From Kribbella qitaiheensis (lineage in GTDB: Bacteria; Actinomycetota; Actinomycetes; Propionibacteriales; Kribbellaceae), in NCBI RefSeq assembly GCF_014217565.1, contig NZ_CP043661.1, forward strand, positions 3,658,001 to 3,722,000: DNA of 64,000 nt, given 5' to 3'. Shown here in pieces: positions 16,595 through 26,298 of this stretch. Made by a program: the position numbers and the translations under genes. The notes below the pieces were generated by a model, which saw only the letters and a list, made by a program, of their open reading frames with translations, did no database searches and was not told the origin of the DNA. Position 1 is the stretch's first letter, and each line of letters begins with the position of its first letter.

Positions 16595-17354
16595 TCAGTT
16601 GTTGCGAGCGTGCGCGTGGTGCAGACCGAGGAGAGGCAGGTACGGCTCGTGGTGGGTGATGGTCTGCGACTCGGGGACGATCAGGGCCGCGAGGGCTCCG
16701 GTCGCCACGACGGTCGCGGCCGAAAGCCCCTGCGCGGCGAGGATCCGGGTCACCAGGCCGTCGACCAGGGAGGCGAAGCCGAAGATGGCGCCCGACTGGA
16801 GGGCTTCGACGGTGTTCTTGGCGACCACCGAGCGGGGGCCGGATCAGTTCGACCCGGCGAAGCTGAGCGGCCACCGCGCCCAGAGCGTCGACCGAAGTTT
16901 CGATGCCCGGGGCAATCGCGCCACCGATGAAGGCCCCGGCCTCGTTGACCACATCCACCGTCGTCGCAGTACCGAAGTCCACGATCACACACGGAGCGCC
17001 GTACAGGTGGACCGCTGCCAAGGCGTTGGCGATCCGGTCCGTGCCGACCTCGCGGGGGTTGTCGACGAGGACGGGCAGCCCGGTCTTCACACCGGGCTCG
17101 ACGACCACACTCGGGACTTTGGGGTAGTACCGCGCGACCAGGTCGCGCAGTTCGTGTAGGACACTCGGGACCGCCGAGCAGACGGCGACGCCGGAGACCG
17201 GCGACTCGCCTGCCAGCAGGCCGTCGAGGAGTACTGCCCATTCGTCCGCCGTACGGCGTGGGTCGGTCCCGACCCACCAGTGGCGCCTGACCGTTCCTTC
17301 GAAGATCAAGCCCACCAGGGTCCGGGTGTTCTCCACCGCGACGGCGAGCAGCAT
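16595..17354 (-). CDS. coaX: type III pantothenate kinase (apparent frameshift; altered first motif)
   Basis: Phosphorylates pantothenate, the first step to coenzyme A. Restored length is about 252 residues, as usual. The second ATP/pantothenate motif GTDRIANALAA and the third, DFGTATTVDVV, are intact, and KNTVEALQSGAIFGF follows. Frame shifts at a run of five G (16834-16838, plus strand) between VELIRP and RSVVAKNTVE, with one extra base. The first motif, normally D(V/I)GNT, reads AVENT (residues 6-10), so the conserved Asp is Ala. Activity may be reduced or another kinase may serve. Start ATG overlaps the nadC stop (TGATG). Confidence 0.88.
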
Positions 17355-20724: not shown

Positions 20725-21558
20725 CGCGGTGCCTCCCCTGTCCGATCCCGCTCCAGCACCTCACCGAACCTGGCCGCCGTCTCCCGATCCAGCCGGCCGT
20801 CGCCTGCCGCCAACTCCACCGTCGCCCGCGCCAGTTCGGCGTACGTGCTCGCCGGGCGACCTCGCAGTACGGCCAGATGTGCCTGCACGGTGTCGACATC
20901 GCCCCGCAGGATCGGCCCGGTGAGCGCATCATGACCGGACCGCAGCGTGTTGTCGAGAGTTGCGGTCAGCAGTGGCCGAAGTGTGGCCGAAGGGTCCGCG
21001 ATCCCGGCGGCACGCAGTACGTCGACAGCTTGGCTGACCAGCGTGACCAGGTGGTTCGCGCCGTGCACGAGACCCGCATGGTAGAGCGCGCGCCGCTCCT
21101 CGGCGATCCACTGCACCTCGGCGCCGAGGTCCTTCACCAGCCGCTCGACCAGCGCCCGATCCGGTGCGGTCGCGGTGAACACGACGCCGGCCAGACTCGC
21201 GGGAGCGTCGGTGAAGGTCATCGGGGGGTGCAACGCGACCGGGGTCGCGGCGATCCCCCGCAGTACGGCGATGCCGTGGGCGCCGGACAGATGCACGGCG
21301 TACTGGTCCTCGGTGAAGGGCAGACTGCCGGCGACCTCAGCGATCGCGTCGTCCGGTACGGCGAGGATCACCACGTCGGCGCGGCCGACCACCTCGGCGG
21401 GCTCGACGACCGGGACGTCCGGAAGAAGCCGCGCGGCGCGTTCCCGTGACGCGCGCGAGCGGGCGCTGACGCCGGTGACGGGATATCCGGCGGACACCAA
21501 GGCTGCTCCCAAGGCGCCACCGGCCCGGGCCGGAGCCGATGATGCCGATGCGTTCCAT
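20721..21558 (-). CDS. Rossmann-like and DUF2520 domain protein (apparent frameshift)
   Basis: Putative NAD(P)-dependent oxidoreductase of about 278 residues, orthologous in position to Mycobacterium Rv3603c. ATG at 21558 ([10 protein letters not shown]) is chosen for an AAAGGTGG site. The N-terminal Rossmann fold ([27 protein letters not shown]) is followed by the DUF2520 helical domain ([15 protein letters not shown]). The frame changes inside the glycine motif at GGG 21527-21529; removing one base restores GSGRAGGALG. Conserved next to panC, it is a candidate ketopantoate reductase-like step, but this is inference. Confidence 0.85.
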
Positions 21559-21682
21559 GTCCACCTTTACGTTCCAGTCCCTGCTCGGGTACCAGACGAT
21601 TCGTGCGGTCTGCACCACCCTAAGGCCCGGCCACGGTCGCGGGTACTACGTGGTTCGTCACAACTGGTGGGAGCATGAGGGC

Positions 21683-22270
21683 GTGAGCGAACGAAACCCC
21701 TGGGCCGCGCGGACCGGATTGACGGCGATCCTGATCGCGGTCCCGGAACTCGCGGAATTCACGGATCGCTGGCGGTCCGTATCGTACTCCTCGGCCCGGC
21801 CGACGATGGCGCTGAGCGAGCTGATCCCGCCCCATGTCACCGTGCTGGTGCCGTGGCTGGCGGAACCCATGCCCGACAAGGTCCGGCGGCTGGAGGAGGC
21901 ACTGGCCGCGGTCCAGCCGTTCGACCTCAGCTTCCCCACTGCCGGTCAGTTCCCGAACGGTACGACCTGGCTGCGGCCCGAGCCGTTCGACCAGGTCAGC
22001 GAGCTGATCAGGATCGTTCTCGACACCTTCCCCGAATGCCCGCCGTACGGCGGTGAGCATCCCGATCCGCACCCGCATCTGACCATCTCGTCGTCCGGGC
22101 AGGGCGGCTCGGAGGGCGGCGCGCGGGTGCTGGCCGAAGCCGAGGCCGCGCTGGCCGCCGAGGAGGTGCCGACCATTCGCCTCGACGACCTGACCATCTG
22201 GCGCGAGGGCGACGACGGCATCTGGCAGCTCACCGGCTCGGTCCCGCTCGGCGGCATCGGGCTCGAATGA
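21683..22270 (+). CDS. 2H phosphoesterase/2'-5' RNA ligase-like protein
   Basis: 195 residues from GTG at 21683 (SERNPWAARTGLTAILIAVPEL). Two HxT motifs mark the 2H superfamily: PPHVTVLVPW (about 58-67) and PHPHLTISSS (about 131-140). Such proteins hydrolyse or form cyclic phosphodiester bonds in RNA or nucleotides; the substrate here is unknown. The next gene (MidA-like methyltransferase) starts inside its stop (ATGA), so they are co-translated. Confidence 0.82.
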   Translation: MSERNPWAARTGLTAILIAVPELAEFTDRWRSVSYSSARPTMALSELIPPHVTVLVPWLAEPMPDKVRRLEEALAAVQPFDLSFPTAGQFPNGTTWLRPEPFDQVSELIRIVLDTFPECPPYGGEHPDPHPHLTISSSGQGGSEGGARVLAEAEAALAAEEVPTIRLDDLTIWREGDDGIWQLTGSVPLGGIGLE

Positions 22271-23157
22271 CCTTTCGGCAAGCCTGGGAGGCCGCGCTCT
22301 ACGGCCCCGACGGCTTCTACCGGCGCGAACGGCCGGCCCAGCACTTCCGTACTTCGGTGCACGCCTCGGCCTTGTTCGGCCAGGCGCTGGCCGGGTTGGC
22401 CCGAGCTGTCGGGGCCACTCGGGTCGTCGACATCGGTGCCGGCTCGGGCGAACTCGGCAAGGTCCTGCGCTCCGAGGGTCTCGACGTGCTCGAGGTGGAA
22501 CTCGACGACGACCTGCCAGCTCGGTTGACCGGTCTGGTGGTCGCGAACGAGTGGCTCGACAACCTCCCCTGCGAGCTGGCCGAGCTGGACGACGAGGGCA
22601 CGCCGCGCTATCTGCTGGCCGACCTGAGCCTCGGCGAGGTTGTCGAGGGCAACGATTTGGGCTGGCTCTCGGCTTGGTGGCCGCTGCGCGAGCCGGGCGA
22701 TCGGGCCGAGATCGGTCTGGCCCGCGATCTCGCTTGGGCCGAGGTGGTCCGCCGCCTGGATGGCGGTGTCGCGCTCGCGATCGACTACGGGCACCTGCGA
22801 ACCGGGCGCCCGCCGTACGGGACTCTGACCGGTTTCCGCAATGGGCGCGAGTGCGAGCCTGTCCTGGACGGCAGCTGCGACATCACTGCCCACGTCGCAC
22901 TGGATTCGCTGGCGGCAGCAGTGCCCGGCGGCACCGTCGTCATGCAGCGCGAGGCGCTACTGGCCTTGGGCGTCACAGCCACTCGCCCGGACCACGAGCT
23001 GTCCCGGACGGACCCCCTGCGCTACCTGACCGAGCTGTCGTCAGCAGGCGAGGCGGCAGAGCTACTGGATCCCTCCGGACTCGGCGGGTTCGGCTGGGTG
23101 TGGACCGGCACCGGGGACTCCGTCGTACGGCGTGCTTCGCGGGCCCTGTCGGCCTGA
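22267..23157 (+). CDS. MidA/NDUFAF7-type SAM-dependent methyltransferase (PF02636)
   Basis: 296-residue methyltransferase. Features of the MidA/NDUFAF7 family in order: YGPDGFYRRERPAQHFRTS with SALFGQALAG (family N-terminal motif), SAM motif VVDIGAGSGELGKVL, ANEWLDNLPCE (the HEFFDALP equivalent), GGVALAIDYGHLRTGRP and DITAHVALDSLA. In mitochondria NDUFAF7 dimethylates an arginine of NDUFS2, the NuoD homologue. Here an orphan nuoD lies about 2 kb away, so it is the obvious candidate substrate. The 3' end overlaps the convergent PH-domain gene by 136 bases. Coupled to the 2H gene upstream. Confidence 0.88.
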   Translation: MTFRQAWEAALYGPDGFYRRERPAQHFRTSVHASALFGQALAGLARAVGATRVVDIGAGSGELGKVLRSEGLDVLEVELDDDLPARLTGLVVANEWLDNLPCELAELDDEGTPRYLLADLSLGEVVEGNDLGWLSAWWPLREPGDRAEIGLARDLAWAEVVRRLDGGVALAIDYGHLRTGRPPYGTLTGFRNGRECEPVLDGSCDITAHVALDSLAAAVPGGTVVMQREALLALGVTATRPDHELSRTDPLRYLTELSSAGEAAELLDPSGLGGFGWVWTGTGDSVVRRASRALSA

Positions 23158-24446
23158 CCCTCTACTAGCTGCGCAGCCTCGGCCAGGTCGCGGTGGAGGG
23201 CTACTGCGTCAGTGGGGCCCTGCGGGGTGTCCACGTGGACGTTGGCGAGGCCCAGGCGCCGCTGGATGGGTCCCTGCTGCAGACGGACCGACTGCGTTTT
23301 GTGGTGCAGCACGATCGACGTACGGCGGCTCACCCAGCCACGCGTAGTCACCATCACCTGGCCGTCGACGCCGTACGTGAGGTAGCGCCAACCGATCGGG
23401 CGCAGCCACTTGGCGCGCTCAGGTGCTCGATGCATCCGGATCGCGGCCAGGTCAGTGCCCGGCAGCACCCTCGCCAGCACGGCAGCGACCTCATTGCGCT
23501 CACCGACCGGCAGTAGCTGAGCGCCTTCGTGCTCGTCCTCGCCGTCGGACTTGGAGCCCGCCACACCGGCGATGTCCAGGTCCACCCGCGACCACCCGAT
23601 CAGCCGCCAGATCAGCGGCTCGGTGATCAGCAGGCCCTGCACGCGCCCTGGCGGGACCGTCTGCCGCTGTACGTCGAACAGACCGCGCTTGGTCCGCAGG
23701 CCGTCCTGCGTCTCAGACAAGGTGAAGCCGTGGTTGCCGACGACCTGCTTCCAGATCGGCTGCACGACACCGAGCAGCAGCGGCAGACCGGCGAACAACC
23801 CGACGTGGAACTCGAACACCATGGTCGTCACGATCAGCCAGATCAGTGCGGCCGCACTGGCGAGCACTGTCGACGACAGCAGCGTCGCGCCGAGCAAACG
23901 CCCGGTCGGAACCACCAGCAGCGGCGGCGCCTCCACCTCGTGGGCAAGCTGCTCGTGCTCGACTGCTTGTTCGCCCTTCGCCCGGAGCAGCAGCGTGCCA
24001 CGGAGCTTGGAGGCCTCGGCCTCGGTGAAGTAGCTCAGCTTGCCGTCGCTCTTGCCGCCACCGGCCACGTCCATCCGCAACTCGGCCATCCCGAACAGCC
24101 TGGCCACGAACGGCTGCGCCACATCGATCGTCTGGATCCGGTCGAACCGGATGATCCTGGTCCGCCGGAACAGGAAGCCGCTGTCGACCCGGATCGCGTC
24201 GCCGGTCAGCTGCCACTTGGTGAACCACCACGACAACGCGCCGAGCAGGATGCCGCCGATCAGTACGGCCAGCAGACCCAACCCGGCGATCTTCAGGTTG
24301 CTGCGCAGGCTCTCGTTGTTCGCCATCGCGACCGCCGCGACGACGAAGTACCCCCAGCCCTTCACGAACGGGGTCAGCGGGTGCAGCCGGTCGCCCGTCT
24401 TCTCGATCACGGCCACGGTCTGCGGCGGCGCGGTCGGCTCGGTCAC
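23022..24446 (-). CDS. membrane protein with bacterial PH domains (YdbT-like, bPH2)
   Basis: About 474 residues. Two pairs of hydrophobic segments (about 45-75 and 175-230) separate bPH2 (DUF304) domains: WQLTGDAIRVDSGFLFRRTRIIRFDRIQTID, GFTLSETQDGLRTKRGLFDVQRQTVPPGRVQ and a third near QVMVTTRGWVSRRTSIVLHHKTQSV. The C-terminal tail is Pro/Ser-rich and reads through into the MidA gene on the other strand. GTG at 24446 overlaps the stop of its partner (GTGA). Members are often paired as YdbS/YdbT; their role is not known. Confidence 0.85.
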   Translation of the reverse strand: MTEPTAPPQTVAVIEKTGDRLHPLTPFVKGWGYFVVAAVAMANNESLRSNLKIAGLGLLAVLIGGILLGALSWWFTKWQLTGDAIRVDSGFLFRRTRIIRFDRIQTIDVAQPFVARLFGMAELRMDVAGGGKSDGKLSYFTEAEASKLRGTLLLRAKGEQAVEHEQLAHEVEAPPLLVVPTGRLLGATLLSSTVLASAAALIWLIVTTMVFEFHVGLFAGLPLLLGVVQPIWKQVVGNHGFTLSETQDGLRTKRGLFDVQRQTVPPGRVQGLLITEPLIWRLIGWSRVDLDIAGVAGSKSDGEDEHEGAQLLPVGERNEVAAVLARVLPGTDLAAIRMHRAPERAKWLRPIGWRYLTYGVDGQVMVTTRGWVSRRTSIVLHHKTQSVRLQQGPIQRRLGLANVHVDTPQGPTDAVALHRDLAEAAQLVEGQADRAREARRTTESPVPVHTQPNPPSPEGSSSSAASPADDSSVR

Positions 24447-24931
24447 AGGCCCCACGCCTGCGCCTGACCGAGCGCGGACAGCCGGTCCCGGAGCCTCGCG
24501 GCCTCATCGGGATGCAGCCCCGGGATCTTCGCGTCCGTCGCCGGCGTCGCGGTGTGCAACTCCACCGTGGCCATCCCGTATGCGCGCTCCAGCGGACCCG
24601 CCGCGACGTCGACGAACTGCATCCGCCCGTACGGCACCACCACCAGCTCGCGGAACATCACCCCGTGGCTGACCAGCAACTCGTCCTCGCGCTCGGCGTA
24701 CTTCCAGGAGCGCTGGTTGCGGCCGATCAGGATCCACGCCCAGACGTACCCGAGCGCCGCGACGACGACCGCCAGTACGCCGTACGTCCAGCCGATCGTC
24801 AGCCCGAGGATCACCAGCGCGGCGGTCGCGAGCAGGCCCAGGGCGATGCCGGCGTTGAGTCGGCGGAGCTTCGCGAGGTTCGGTGAGACCGGCGTCCAGC
24901 TGACATCGGAAGGTGCGAAGAGGTCGTTCAC
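24443..24931 (-). CDS. membrane protein with one bacterial PH domain (YdbS-like)
   Basis: 162 residues from GTG at 24931. Two adjacent transmembrane helices (about 28-72) are followed by one bPH2 domain: RSWKYAEREDELLVSHGVMF, VVPYGRMQFVDVAAGPLERAYGMATVELHTA. First gene of a two-gene operon with the YdbT-like protein. It is divergent from nuoD, and a 116-base fold-back lies between them. Confidence 0.88.
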   Translation of the reverse strand: MNDLFAPSDVSWTPVSPNLAKLRRLNAGIALGLLATAALVILGLTIGWTYGVLAVVVAALGYVWAWILIGRNQRSWKYAEREDELLVSHGVMFRELVVVPYGRMQFVDVAAGPLERAYGMATVELHTATPATDAKIPGLHPDEAARLRDRLSALGQAQAWGL

Positions 24932-24950
24932 AAGGCAAGCCTGTCACGAC

Positions 24951-25066
24951 AGTGGGCCGTGAGCGACGTAGCTTGAACGATGTCGGTGGTCAGGTGCGTG
25001 CATCGGGGCGTTTGAGATGCGTGCCTGGGCGCCGACATCGTCAAGCTACGTCGCTCACGGCACACT
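24951..25066. repeat. 116-base fold-back (long inverted repeat) between PH operon and nuoD
   Basis: Outer arms 24951-24986 and 25032-25066 pair over about 35 bp with one mismatch and one bulged base. Inside, CAGGTGCGTGCATC and GATGCGTGCCTG can pair with G-U wobbles around a short loop. The right arm ends just before AAGGG and the nuoD ATG. Could be a large operator, an RNA leader structure or a remnant of a small mobile element. Confidence 0.8.
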
Positions 25067-25073
25067 AAGGGTC

Positions 25074-26280
25074 ATGAGCGTGGAACGAGTGGTGGGTATC
25101 GGCGCGGGCGCAGCCGGGTTGGACCCGGTCTACGAGCGGGGCGGCACCGGCACCGCGTCGGAGCTGCCGACCACCGACATGGTGCTCAACATCGGGCCGC
25201 AGCACCCCGCCACCCACGGCGTACTCCGGCTGCGGCTGACCCTCGACGGTGAGCGGATCCTGCACTGCGAGCCGATCGTCGGCTACATGCACCGCGGCGC
25301 CGAGAAGCTCTTCGAGGTCCGCGACTACCGGCAGATCCTCGTGCTGGCGAACCGGCACGACTGGCTGTCCGCGTTCTCCAACGAGCTCGGTGTCGTGCTC
25401 GCGGTCGAACGGATGATGGGTCTCGAGGTGCCGGTCCGAGCCGTCTGGCTGCGTACGCTGCTGGCCGAGTTGAACCGGATCCTGAACCACCTGATGTTCC
25501 TCGGCTCCTACCCGCTGGAGCTCGGCGCGATCACGCCGGTCTTCTACGCCTTCCGCGAGCGGGAGACGATCCAGGCGGTGATGGAGGAGCTGTCCGGCGG
25601 GCGGATGCACTACATGTTCAACCGGGTCGGCGGTCTGAAGGAGGACATCCCGCTCGGCTGGCTCCAGCGCGCCGGGGCCGCGTCGGCCGCAGTACGGCGT
25701 CGTCTTCCCGACATCGAGAACCTGATCCTCGGCAACGAGATCTTCCGCGCCCGGACCGTCGGCGTCGGTCGGCTCTCGCCCGAACTGATCGCGGCGTACG
25801 GCGTCTCGGGCCCGATCGCCCGAGCGTCCGGGGTCGACGCGGATCTGCGCCGCGACGAGCCGTACCTGGCGTACGAGGAGCTCGCCCAGGACGGCGTACT
25901 CCGGGTGGTGACCCGCACCGAAGGCGATTGCTACGCCCGCTTCTCGCTCCTCCTCGACCAGGTGAAGGTCTCCCTCGACCTGGTCGATGCGTGCCTGGAC
26001 CGCCTGCTGGCGATGCCGGGCCGGCCCGGTCAGCACCCGCCTCCCCAAGATCCTCAAGGTCCCCGAAGGCCAGACCTACTGCTGGACCGAGAACCCCCTG
26101 GGCATCAACGGCTACTACCTCGTCTCCCGAGGCGACAAAACCCCCTGGCGCCTCAAACTCCGCTCCGCCAGCTTCAACAACATCTCGGTCCTCCCCGAAA
26201 TGCTCCCCAACACCATCGTCGCCGACATGATCGCCATCCTCGGCAGCATGTTCTTCGTAGTAGGCGACATCGACAAGTAG
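25074..26280 (+). CDS. nuoD: orphan NADH-quinone oxidoreductase subunit D (NuoD2-like; apparent frameshift)
   Basis: 49-kDa subunit homologue of complex I, about 401 residues when the frame is restored. ATG at 25074 follows AAGGG. Signatures: [33 protein letters not shown] (HRG arginine = residue 74), [35 protein letters not shown] and, after the shift, [19 protein letters not shown]. The frame changes near GGG 26028-26030, where one base too many separates [11 protein letters not shown] and [12 protein letters not shown]. No other nuo genes are present, as for the second nuoD of Streptomyces. Its role outside a full complex is unknown; the nearby MidA-type methyltransferase is suggestive. 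Confidence 0.87.
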
Positions 26281-26298
26281 CCGCTCACCCGCCTTGAG

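Follow-up and report, generated by a model that had tools for sequence, protein, structure and literature searches.

A MidA-type methyltransferase gene accompanies a displaced nuoD2: candidate arginine methylation in a second complex I

midA, nuoD2 and a second complex I

The window analyzed here, a stretch of 64,000 nucleotides at positions 3658001-3722000 of the one-contig, 8.16 Mb genome of Kribbella qitaiheensis, carries a gene for a MidA/NDUFAF7-type methyltransferase and, on the same strand, a nuoD gene; we refer to them as midA and nuoD2. In window coordinates, the two genes and the codons that matter most are:

22267..23157, plus strand: midA, MidA/NDUFAF7-type S-adenosylmethionine (SAM) methyltransferase (PF02636), 296 aa, a putative NuoD2 arginine methyltransferase, based on the PF02636 match, positions conserved in 18 orthologues, and solved COG1565 and NDUFAF7 chains
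25074..26280, plus strand: nuoD2, read as the displaced D subunit of a second complex I from its sequence, PF00346 and a tree
25293..25295, plus strand: codon of Arg74 in the HRGxE motif, the predicted methylation site (HRG in 80/80 named orthologues, Thr in the canonical NuoD of this genome)
25362..25364, plus strand: codon of Trp97, aligned with the Tyr that binds quinone in canonical NuoD (Trp in 80/80 named orthologues, Tyr in aligned solved chains)

The closest named relatives of this locus, also by phylogeny, belong to Kribbella. The original prediction had placed a methyltransferase with the full PF02636 motif order at 22267-23157, and an uninterrupted PF02636 gene there (+) is upheld by a Pfam score above cut-off (57.8 against 23.3 bits, with the alignment covering only profile positions 91-237 of 249) as well as by an orthologue profile. 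Built from 18 MidA sequences, the latter matches the solved COG1565/DUF185 proteins 4f3n (1.7e-21) and 1zkd (6.5e-13), and the NDUFAF7 homologue 5ztz at 6.4e-5. D55, G59, G61, E95, L97, D98 and P101 are invariant among the 18 sequences, and we take them to represent SAM motif I and the NE-x-LD-xx-P motif. A 2018 paper reportedly deals with a proteobacterial origin of MidA. The window genome contains a second PF02636 match far from this locus (G000:C1:33498-33965), which at 24.1 bits lies barely above the cut-off.

That nuoD2 has no other nuo genes around it, as originally noted, is true locally. Genome-wide, however, there is a canonical nuo operon, which includes a NuoD, and also a second set of nuo genes, nuo2. 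A NuoH search returned a second, shorter NuoH at 3442236; NuoB2 and NuoC2 lie beside it, without a NuoD, and NuoI2, J2, K2, L2, M2 and N2 follow further along, which places the set ~240-255 kb from nuoD2. NuoA2 was not found in the searched stretches, and D, E and F gave no match in this nuo2 set (nuoG was not among the queries, here or in the survey below). The set is also broken up (L290:9212-13537, L327), with other genes between nuoC2 and nuoH2—presumably an NmrA-like gene and a toxin-antitoxin-like pair—and ABC (ATP-binding cassette)-transporter-like genes between nuoH2 and nuoI2.

We surveyed nuo2 in 11 other genomes of the window genome's own class (the class to which all class counts below refer), selected for having a second NuoH. 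B2, C2, H2, J2, K2, L2 and two more antiporter-type genes occur in 11/11, A2 in 10/11, and I2 in 5/5 examined, whereas D, E and F gave no match in the nuo2 region of 11/11. Because the nuo2 sets of the window genome and of all 11 others come without a nuoD, the window gene is best read, from sequence, as the D subunit of a second, 11-subunit-type complex I whose other genes lie elsewhere. One genome (G211) has NuoD2, MidA and nuo2 A2-N2, and no canonical NuoD or NuoH was found in it. The suggestion that this NuoD might form a stand-alone module separate from full complex I does not hold here: with NuoH2, NuoB2 and NuoC2 present in the same genome and lacking a nuoD of their own, we rejected a truly stand-alone NuoD.

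A displaced nuoD2 has already been published for Streptomyces, where the second complex I set is likewise reported as contiguous save for nuoD2 (PMC3765725, PMC8388888) and without genes of the NADH module (N-module; PMC3765725). The text of PMC3765725 contains neither 'methyltransferase' nor 'MidA', and the available parts of both accounts leave MidA, the Trp, the NuoB/NuoD switch and the midA-ended operon described below unmentioned. The set also resembles the 11-subunit complex I-like enzymes of, for example, Desulfitobacterium, which are reported to consist of A, B, C, D and H-N without E, F and G, and whose electron donor is described as unresolved (PMC11238625). Unlike in those enzymes, D is here displaced together with a methyltransferase gene, carries Trp for the quinone Tyr, and usually stands beside a 14-subunit enzyme.

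The two genes of the window turn up together in many actinobacteria. Among 394 class genomes, 127 contain both, two NuoD2 only (G371, G421), three MidA only (G344, G394, G511) and 262 neither, the last number being counted at a NuoD E-value of 1e-70, with a looser NuoD re-search covering 24 genomes. MidA was counted at E ≤1e-10, that is, for 130 of 139 matches, leaving out nine at 1e-4 to 1e-3. NuoD2 counts combine 116 matches at ≤1e-70 (that of G477 being canonical) with 14 diverged NuoD2 beside MidA, nine of which were verified by residues and the rest by their position beside MidA. Genera of families f2, f7 and f66 differ, some having both genes and others neither. The two genes are also mostly close together: in 75 of 80 named loci MidA lies within 10 kb of nuoD2 (one MidA being a fragment at a contig end), and the five remaining loci are within ~5 kb of a contig end. 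Across the 75, the gap ranges from ~0 to 7.4 kb, with 56 pairs on the same strand and 19 convergent. The co-occurrence and synteny on which the original prediction had staked its case were thus largely confirmed.

Outside the class, gene positions were compared in 48 genomes with both a PF02636 match and a listed NuoD2, and in 33 of them the two share a contig, 0.8 to 26 kb apart. We fetched 16 such loci, chosen for having MidA and NuoD on the same contig and therefore not a random draw. In 12 of these, nuoD2 sits between nuoC2 and nuoH2 in an operon of A2, B2, C2, D2, H2 and J2-N2 (searched without an I2 query), and MidA lies downstream, 0 to 6.4 kb past nuoN2 (the twelfth locus being L303). 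Given this arrangement, the simplest history starts from an ancestral cluster, nuoA2-N2-midA, which nuoD2 and midA probably left jointly in the class. Family f17, also outside the class (L299, L300; G033, G007), has nuoD2 and MidA with no nuo2 operon within 16-18 kb, and HRA for HRG.

Target arginine, quinone position and NuoB partner

Residues were read from an alignment of 181 NuoD rows, counting each motif once per genome, with 'Trp-type' defined by Trp at the quinone-Tyr position itself. Of these rows, 126 are Trp-type, and every one has Arg at the target position (114 HRG, 8 HRA, 4 HRS). The 55 Tyr-type rows comprise 44 with HTG and 11 with Arg, and the canonical NuoD of the window genome has Thr at this site. 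Action of MidA on the canonical NuoD of the class is accordingly unlikely, the canonical rows read carrying Thr (44/44 HTG rows are Tyr-type). The 80 named NuoD2 were found by similarity and hence independently of the Trp; without exception they carry HRG and Trp, and the quinone-binding His of the first beta loop (QHPxTHG) is likewise present in 80/80. NuoD2 thereby shares the His of canonical quinone-reducing NuoD while having Trp in place of the Tyr, and because of this replacement we classed the window gene as NuoD2 rather than canonical NuoD.

That Tyr binds the quinone head group and was called strictly conserved (PMC8119997), and here is a large clade with Trp in its stead. Since Trp replaces the head-group-binding residue, NuoD2 may bind quinone otherwise or use another acceptor.

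The target position is also part of an inter-subunit switch: in Thermus thermophilus NuoD has Thr and an Arg of NuoB fills that space, and in Yarrowia the reverse is reported (PMC8042128). At the partner position we found Arg in NuoB1 (20/20, one further NuoB1 fragment not including the position) and Thr in NuoB2 (31/31). The NuoB/NuoD Arg/Thr switch distinguishes the canonical from the nuo2 sets, and with Arg in NuoD2 and Thr in NuoB2, these two subunits fit each other, which lends indirect support to an assembly of NuoD2 with nuo2 subunits. A tree of 110 NuoD rows, made with a quick method without bootstrap and having several long end branches, places the Trp-type rows on one side of a branch with a Shimodaira-Hasegawa-like approximate likelihood ratio test (SH-aLRT) value of 99, and class NuoD2 on one side of another (100).

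Lineages with an apparently reduced set of nuo2 genes

Not all class lineages seem to keep the whole of nuo2. Of the 67 NuoD2-positive class genomes searched for NuoH, 39 contain a second copy of it (E 1e-97 to 1e-105); in the other 28 the search gave no full second copy. All 39 have NuoD2 at E ≤1e-140, whereas 25 of the 28 have a less conserved NuoD2 (E >1e-127, or found only in a looser search), the exceptions being G308, G390 and G055, the last with a fragment match. Seven of the 28 (G307, G320, G330, G347, G512, G308 and G390) have NuoB2, adjoined by NuoC2 in 7/7 and accompanied by NuoI2 in six, the seventh stretch stopping at a contig end. The cysteine motifs of NuoB2 and NuoI2 are intact where read. 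In these seven genomes there was no NuoL2-like match besides canonical NuoL among the matches listed (to ~1e-49); the same bound applied to NuoB2, so that no NuoB2 absence can be deduced for families such as f84 and f87.

These are lineages in which mainly genes of the quinone-reducing module (Q-module) seem left. We raise the possibility, as a tentative one, that several class lineages have reduced their second complex I to a Q-module of NuoB2-C2-D2-I2 plus MidA. This module, bearing Trp where canonical NuoD has the quinone Tyr, would either dock onto the canonical membrane arm as an alternative Q-module or work as a soluble iron-sulfur (Fe-S) oxidoreductase. If true, complex I would have an exchangeable, methylation-dependent Q-module. 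Such a reduced module seems to exist in lineages other than that of the window, as B2-C2-D2-I2 and not as D alone.

Proposed role of MidA, alternatives and neighboring genes

Human NDUFAF7 dimethylates the homologous arginine of NDUFS2 (Arg85) and is reported to be needed for complex I assembly (PMC3829151), and in Paracoccus denitrificans the homologous arginine is symmetrically dimethylated (PMC3750175). What our pair shares with these systems is a PF02636 enzyme and, in the 49-kDa subunit, an HRGxE arginine (PMC3829151, PMC3750175); the modification is thus known from a bacterium too (PMC3750175). The difference is that midA is here linked to one of two NuoD paralogues, the other being without the arginine, and that methylation is here a prediction.

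Gene sets, linkage, residue pattern and phylogeny can be read directly from sequence, and it is from these that we infer a methylation, its timing and the co-assembly of the proteins. NuoD2 likely serves as D subunit in a second complex I without an NADH module, and its Arg74 would be dimethylated by MidA; by homology with NDUFAF7, MidA is very probably the enzyme that methylates this arginine. Dimethylation would precede or accompany the assembly of NuoD2 with NuoB2. Arg74, once methylated, would then belong to the second shell around Fe-S cluster N2, like its homologue in mitochondrial NDUFS2, and would let NuoD2 join NuoB2 and hold the cluster. Since NuoB1 supplies an arginine and NuoD1 has Thr, the cell's canonical complex I would need no MidA for this position. 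One cell with two NuoD paralogues, with and without the MidA target arginine, provides a bacterial setting for the role of the methylation, so that its part in assembly and in tuning cluster N2 becomes cleanly testable. In the open-licence literature, we found no link of MidA to nuoD2 and no report of the Trp; the midA-nuoD2 pairing, the Trp of the NuoD2 clade and the reduced B2-C2-D2 lineages are new, the displaced nuoD2 being known.

Several observations speak against this proposal. No methylation data were found in that literature for any actinobacterial NuoD, and Escherichia coli keeps the arginine, reportedly unmodified (PMC3750175). Some Trp-type rows have HRA (eight) or HRS (four) in place of HRG, and 26 of the 126 Trp-type rows (21 HRG, 4 HRA, 1 HRS) come from genomes in which MidA was not found, 24 by PF02636 and two (G371, G421) by protein query; 10 of the 11 Arg-bearing Tyr-type rows are likewise without MidA. 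Because the MidA of G211 escaped PF02636, some of these genomes may have one after all, and the 13 of the 26 rows placed in the tree make up one side of a branch (94), a pattern that could stem from one MidA loss with Arg retained. Three class genomes of genus g184 (G394, G344, G511; L339, L340, L341) have a MidA-like gene and no NuoD2 match; the gene may be a remnant there or have another substrate. Outside the class, midA and nuoD2 are on different contigs in 15 of the 48 genomes, including all eight of family f11, so that linkage there is common but not general. MidA of Wolbachia, moreover, was reported to methylate DNA, a result its authors term preliminary (PMC12455994). The three genomes with MidA alone, the 26 rows without it, the separate contigs and the Wolbachia result would also suit an adjacency that is inherited synteny only, MidA acting on some other protein or on nucleic acid. 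We regard this as the least probable of the alternatives: linkage in the class persists while orientation and spacing vary, the genes are jointly absent from some genera of f2, f7 and f66, families with both elsewhere, MidA comes after the nuo2 operon at 12 loci outside the class, and the known human substrate is a NuoD homologue (PMC3829151). It is hardly more probable that NuoD2 acts alone, or replaces NuoD1 in the canonical complex I, with MidA modifying it for that purpose. MidA and NuoD2 are indeed retained in the 28 genomes without a full second NuoH found, and Arg and Trp are kept in the examined rows of these genomes; yet strong conservation of NuoD2 accompanies the second NuoH in all 39 genomes that have it and the 25 less conserved NuoD2 are all without, the Arg/Thr switch pairs NuoD2 with NuoB2 and not NuoB1, and seven of the 28 retain NuoB2 and NuoC2.

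Methylation of a nuo2-bound NuoD2, our preferred reading, must also face the frame of the gene in the window itself, which is broken. The original prediction correctly saw a NuoD with an intact HRG (the gene lies from 25074 on)—and Arg74 is the correct number provided that translation begins with the Met at 25074—but overlooked that the gene is not in one frame: it leaves the open frame 25017-26297 at ~26012-26053, and its C part continues in another, 25987-26280. PF00346 scores 162.9 bits on the N part and 77.3 bits on the C part (cut-off 24), and TIGR01962 308.9 and 71.3 bits in the two frames against a cut-off of 459.35, the gene being split and of the short type. A pseudogene, with the pair decaying in this strain, is unlikely, though better placed than the two preceding alternatives. 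It would account for a frame change seen in none of 80 named relatives, where the frame is continuous to a common stop; against it, identity with the nearest Kribbella is 94% in the part beyond the frame change, and an ftsH-like gene (as we name it) and the canonical nuoM of the same assembly are each in two frames, with both sides matching well, which suggests sequencing errors. Compared with three Kribbella relatives, the assembly also has unpaired differences of one base elsewhere. Because like one-base differences and frame splits recur in it, an assembly error is probably the cause, rather than a dead gene. One-base differences and frame splits were noted at window positions 16838, 31631 and 32915 and at L278:1248-2742, and suggest insertion or deletion errors in the assembly.

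Three further genes surround the pair, all listed as context only and each assigned by a Pfam match:

21539..22270, plus strand: 2H phosphoesterase, its 3' end overlapping the start of midA
23022..24455, minus strand: bPH_2 membrane protein gene, convergent with midA
24443..24931, minus strand: second bPH_2 gene, divergent from nuoD2

Pfam thus agrees with the original mention of a 2H phosphoesterase (here 21539-22270, +) and of a two-gene PH-domain membrane operon, here two bPH_2 genes (24931-23022, minus strand). We rejected the phosphoesterase and the PH-domain genes as parts of the system, as many pair-bearing loci are without them. Among the 80 named loci, the phosphoesterase occurs only at those of Kribbella (8/9), and the bPH_2 pair was not found at Streptosporangium-type loci. 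The bPH_2 pair (23022-24931) adjoins nuoD2 also in Kribbella, at most Streptomyces loci, in Actinomadura and in a few others.

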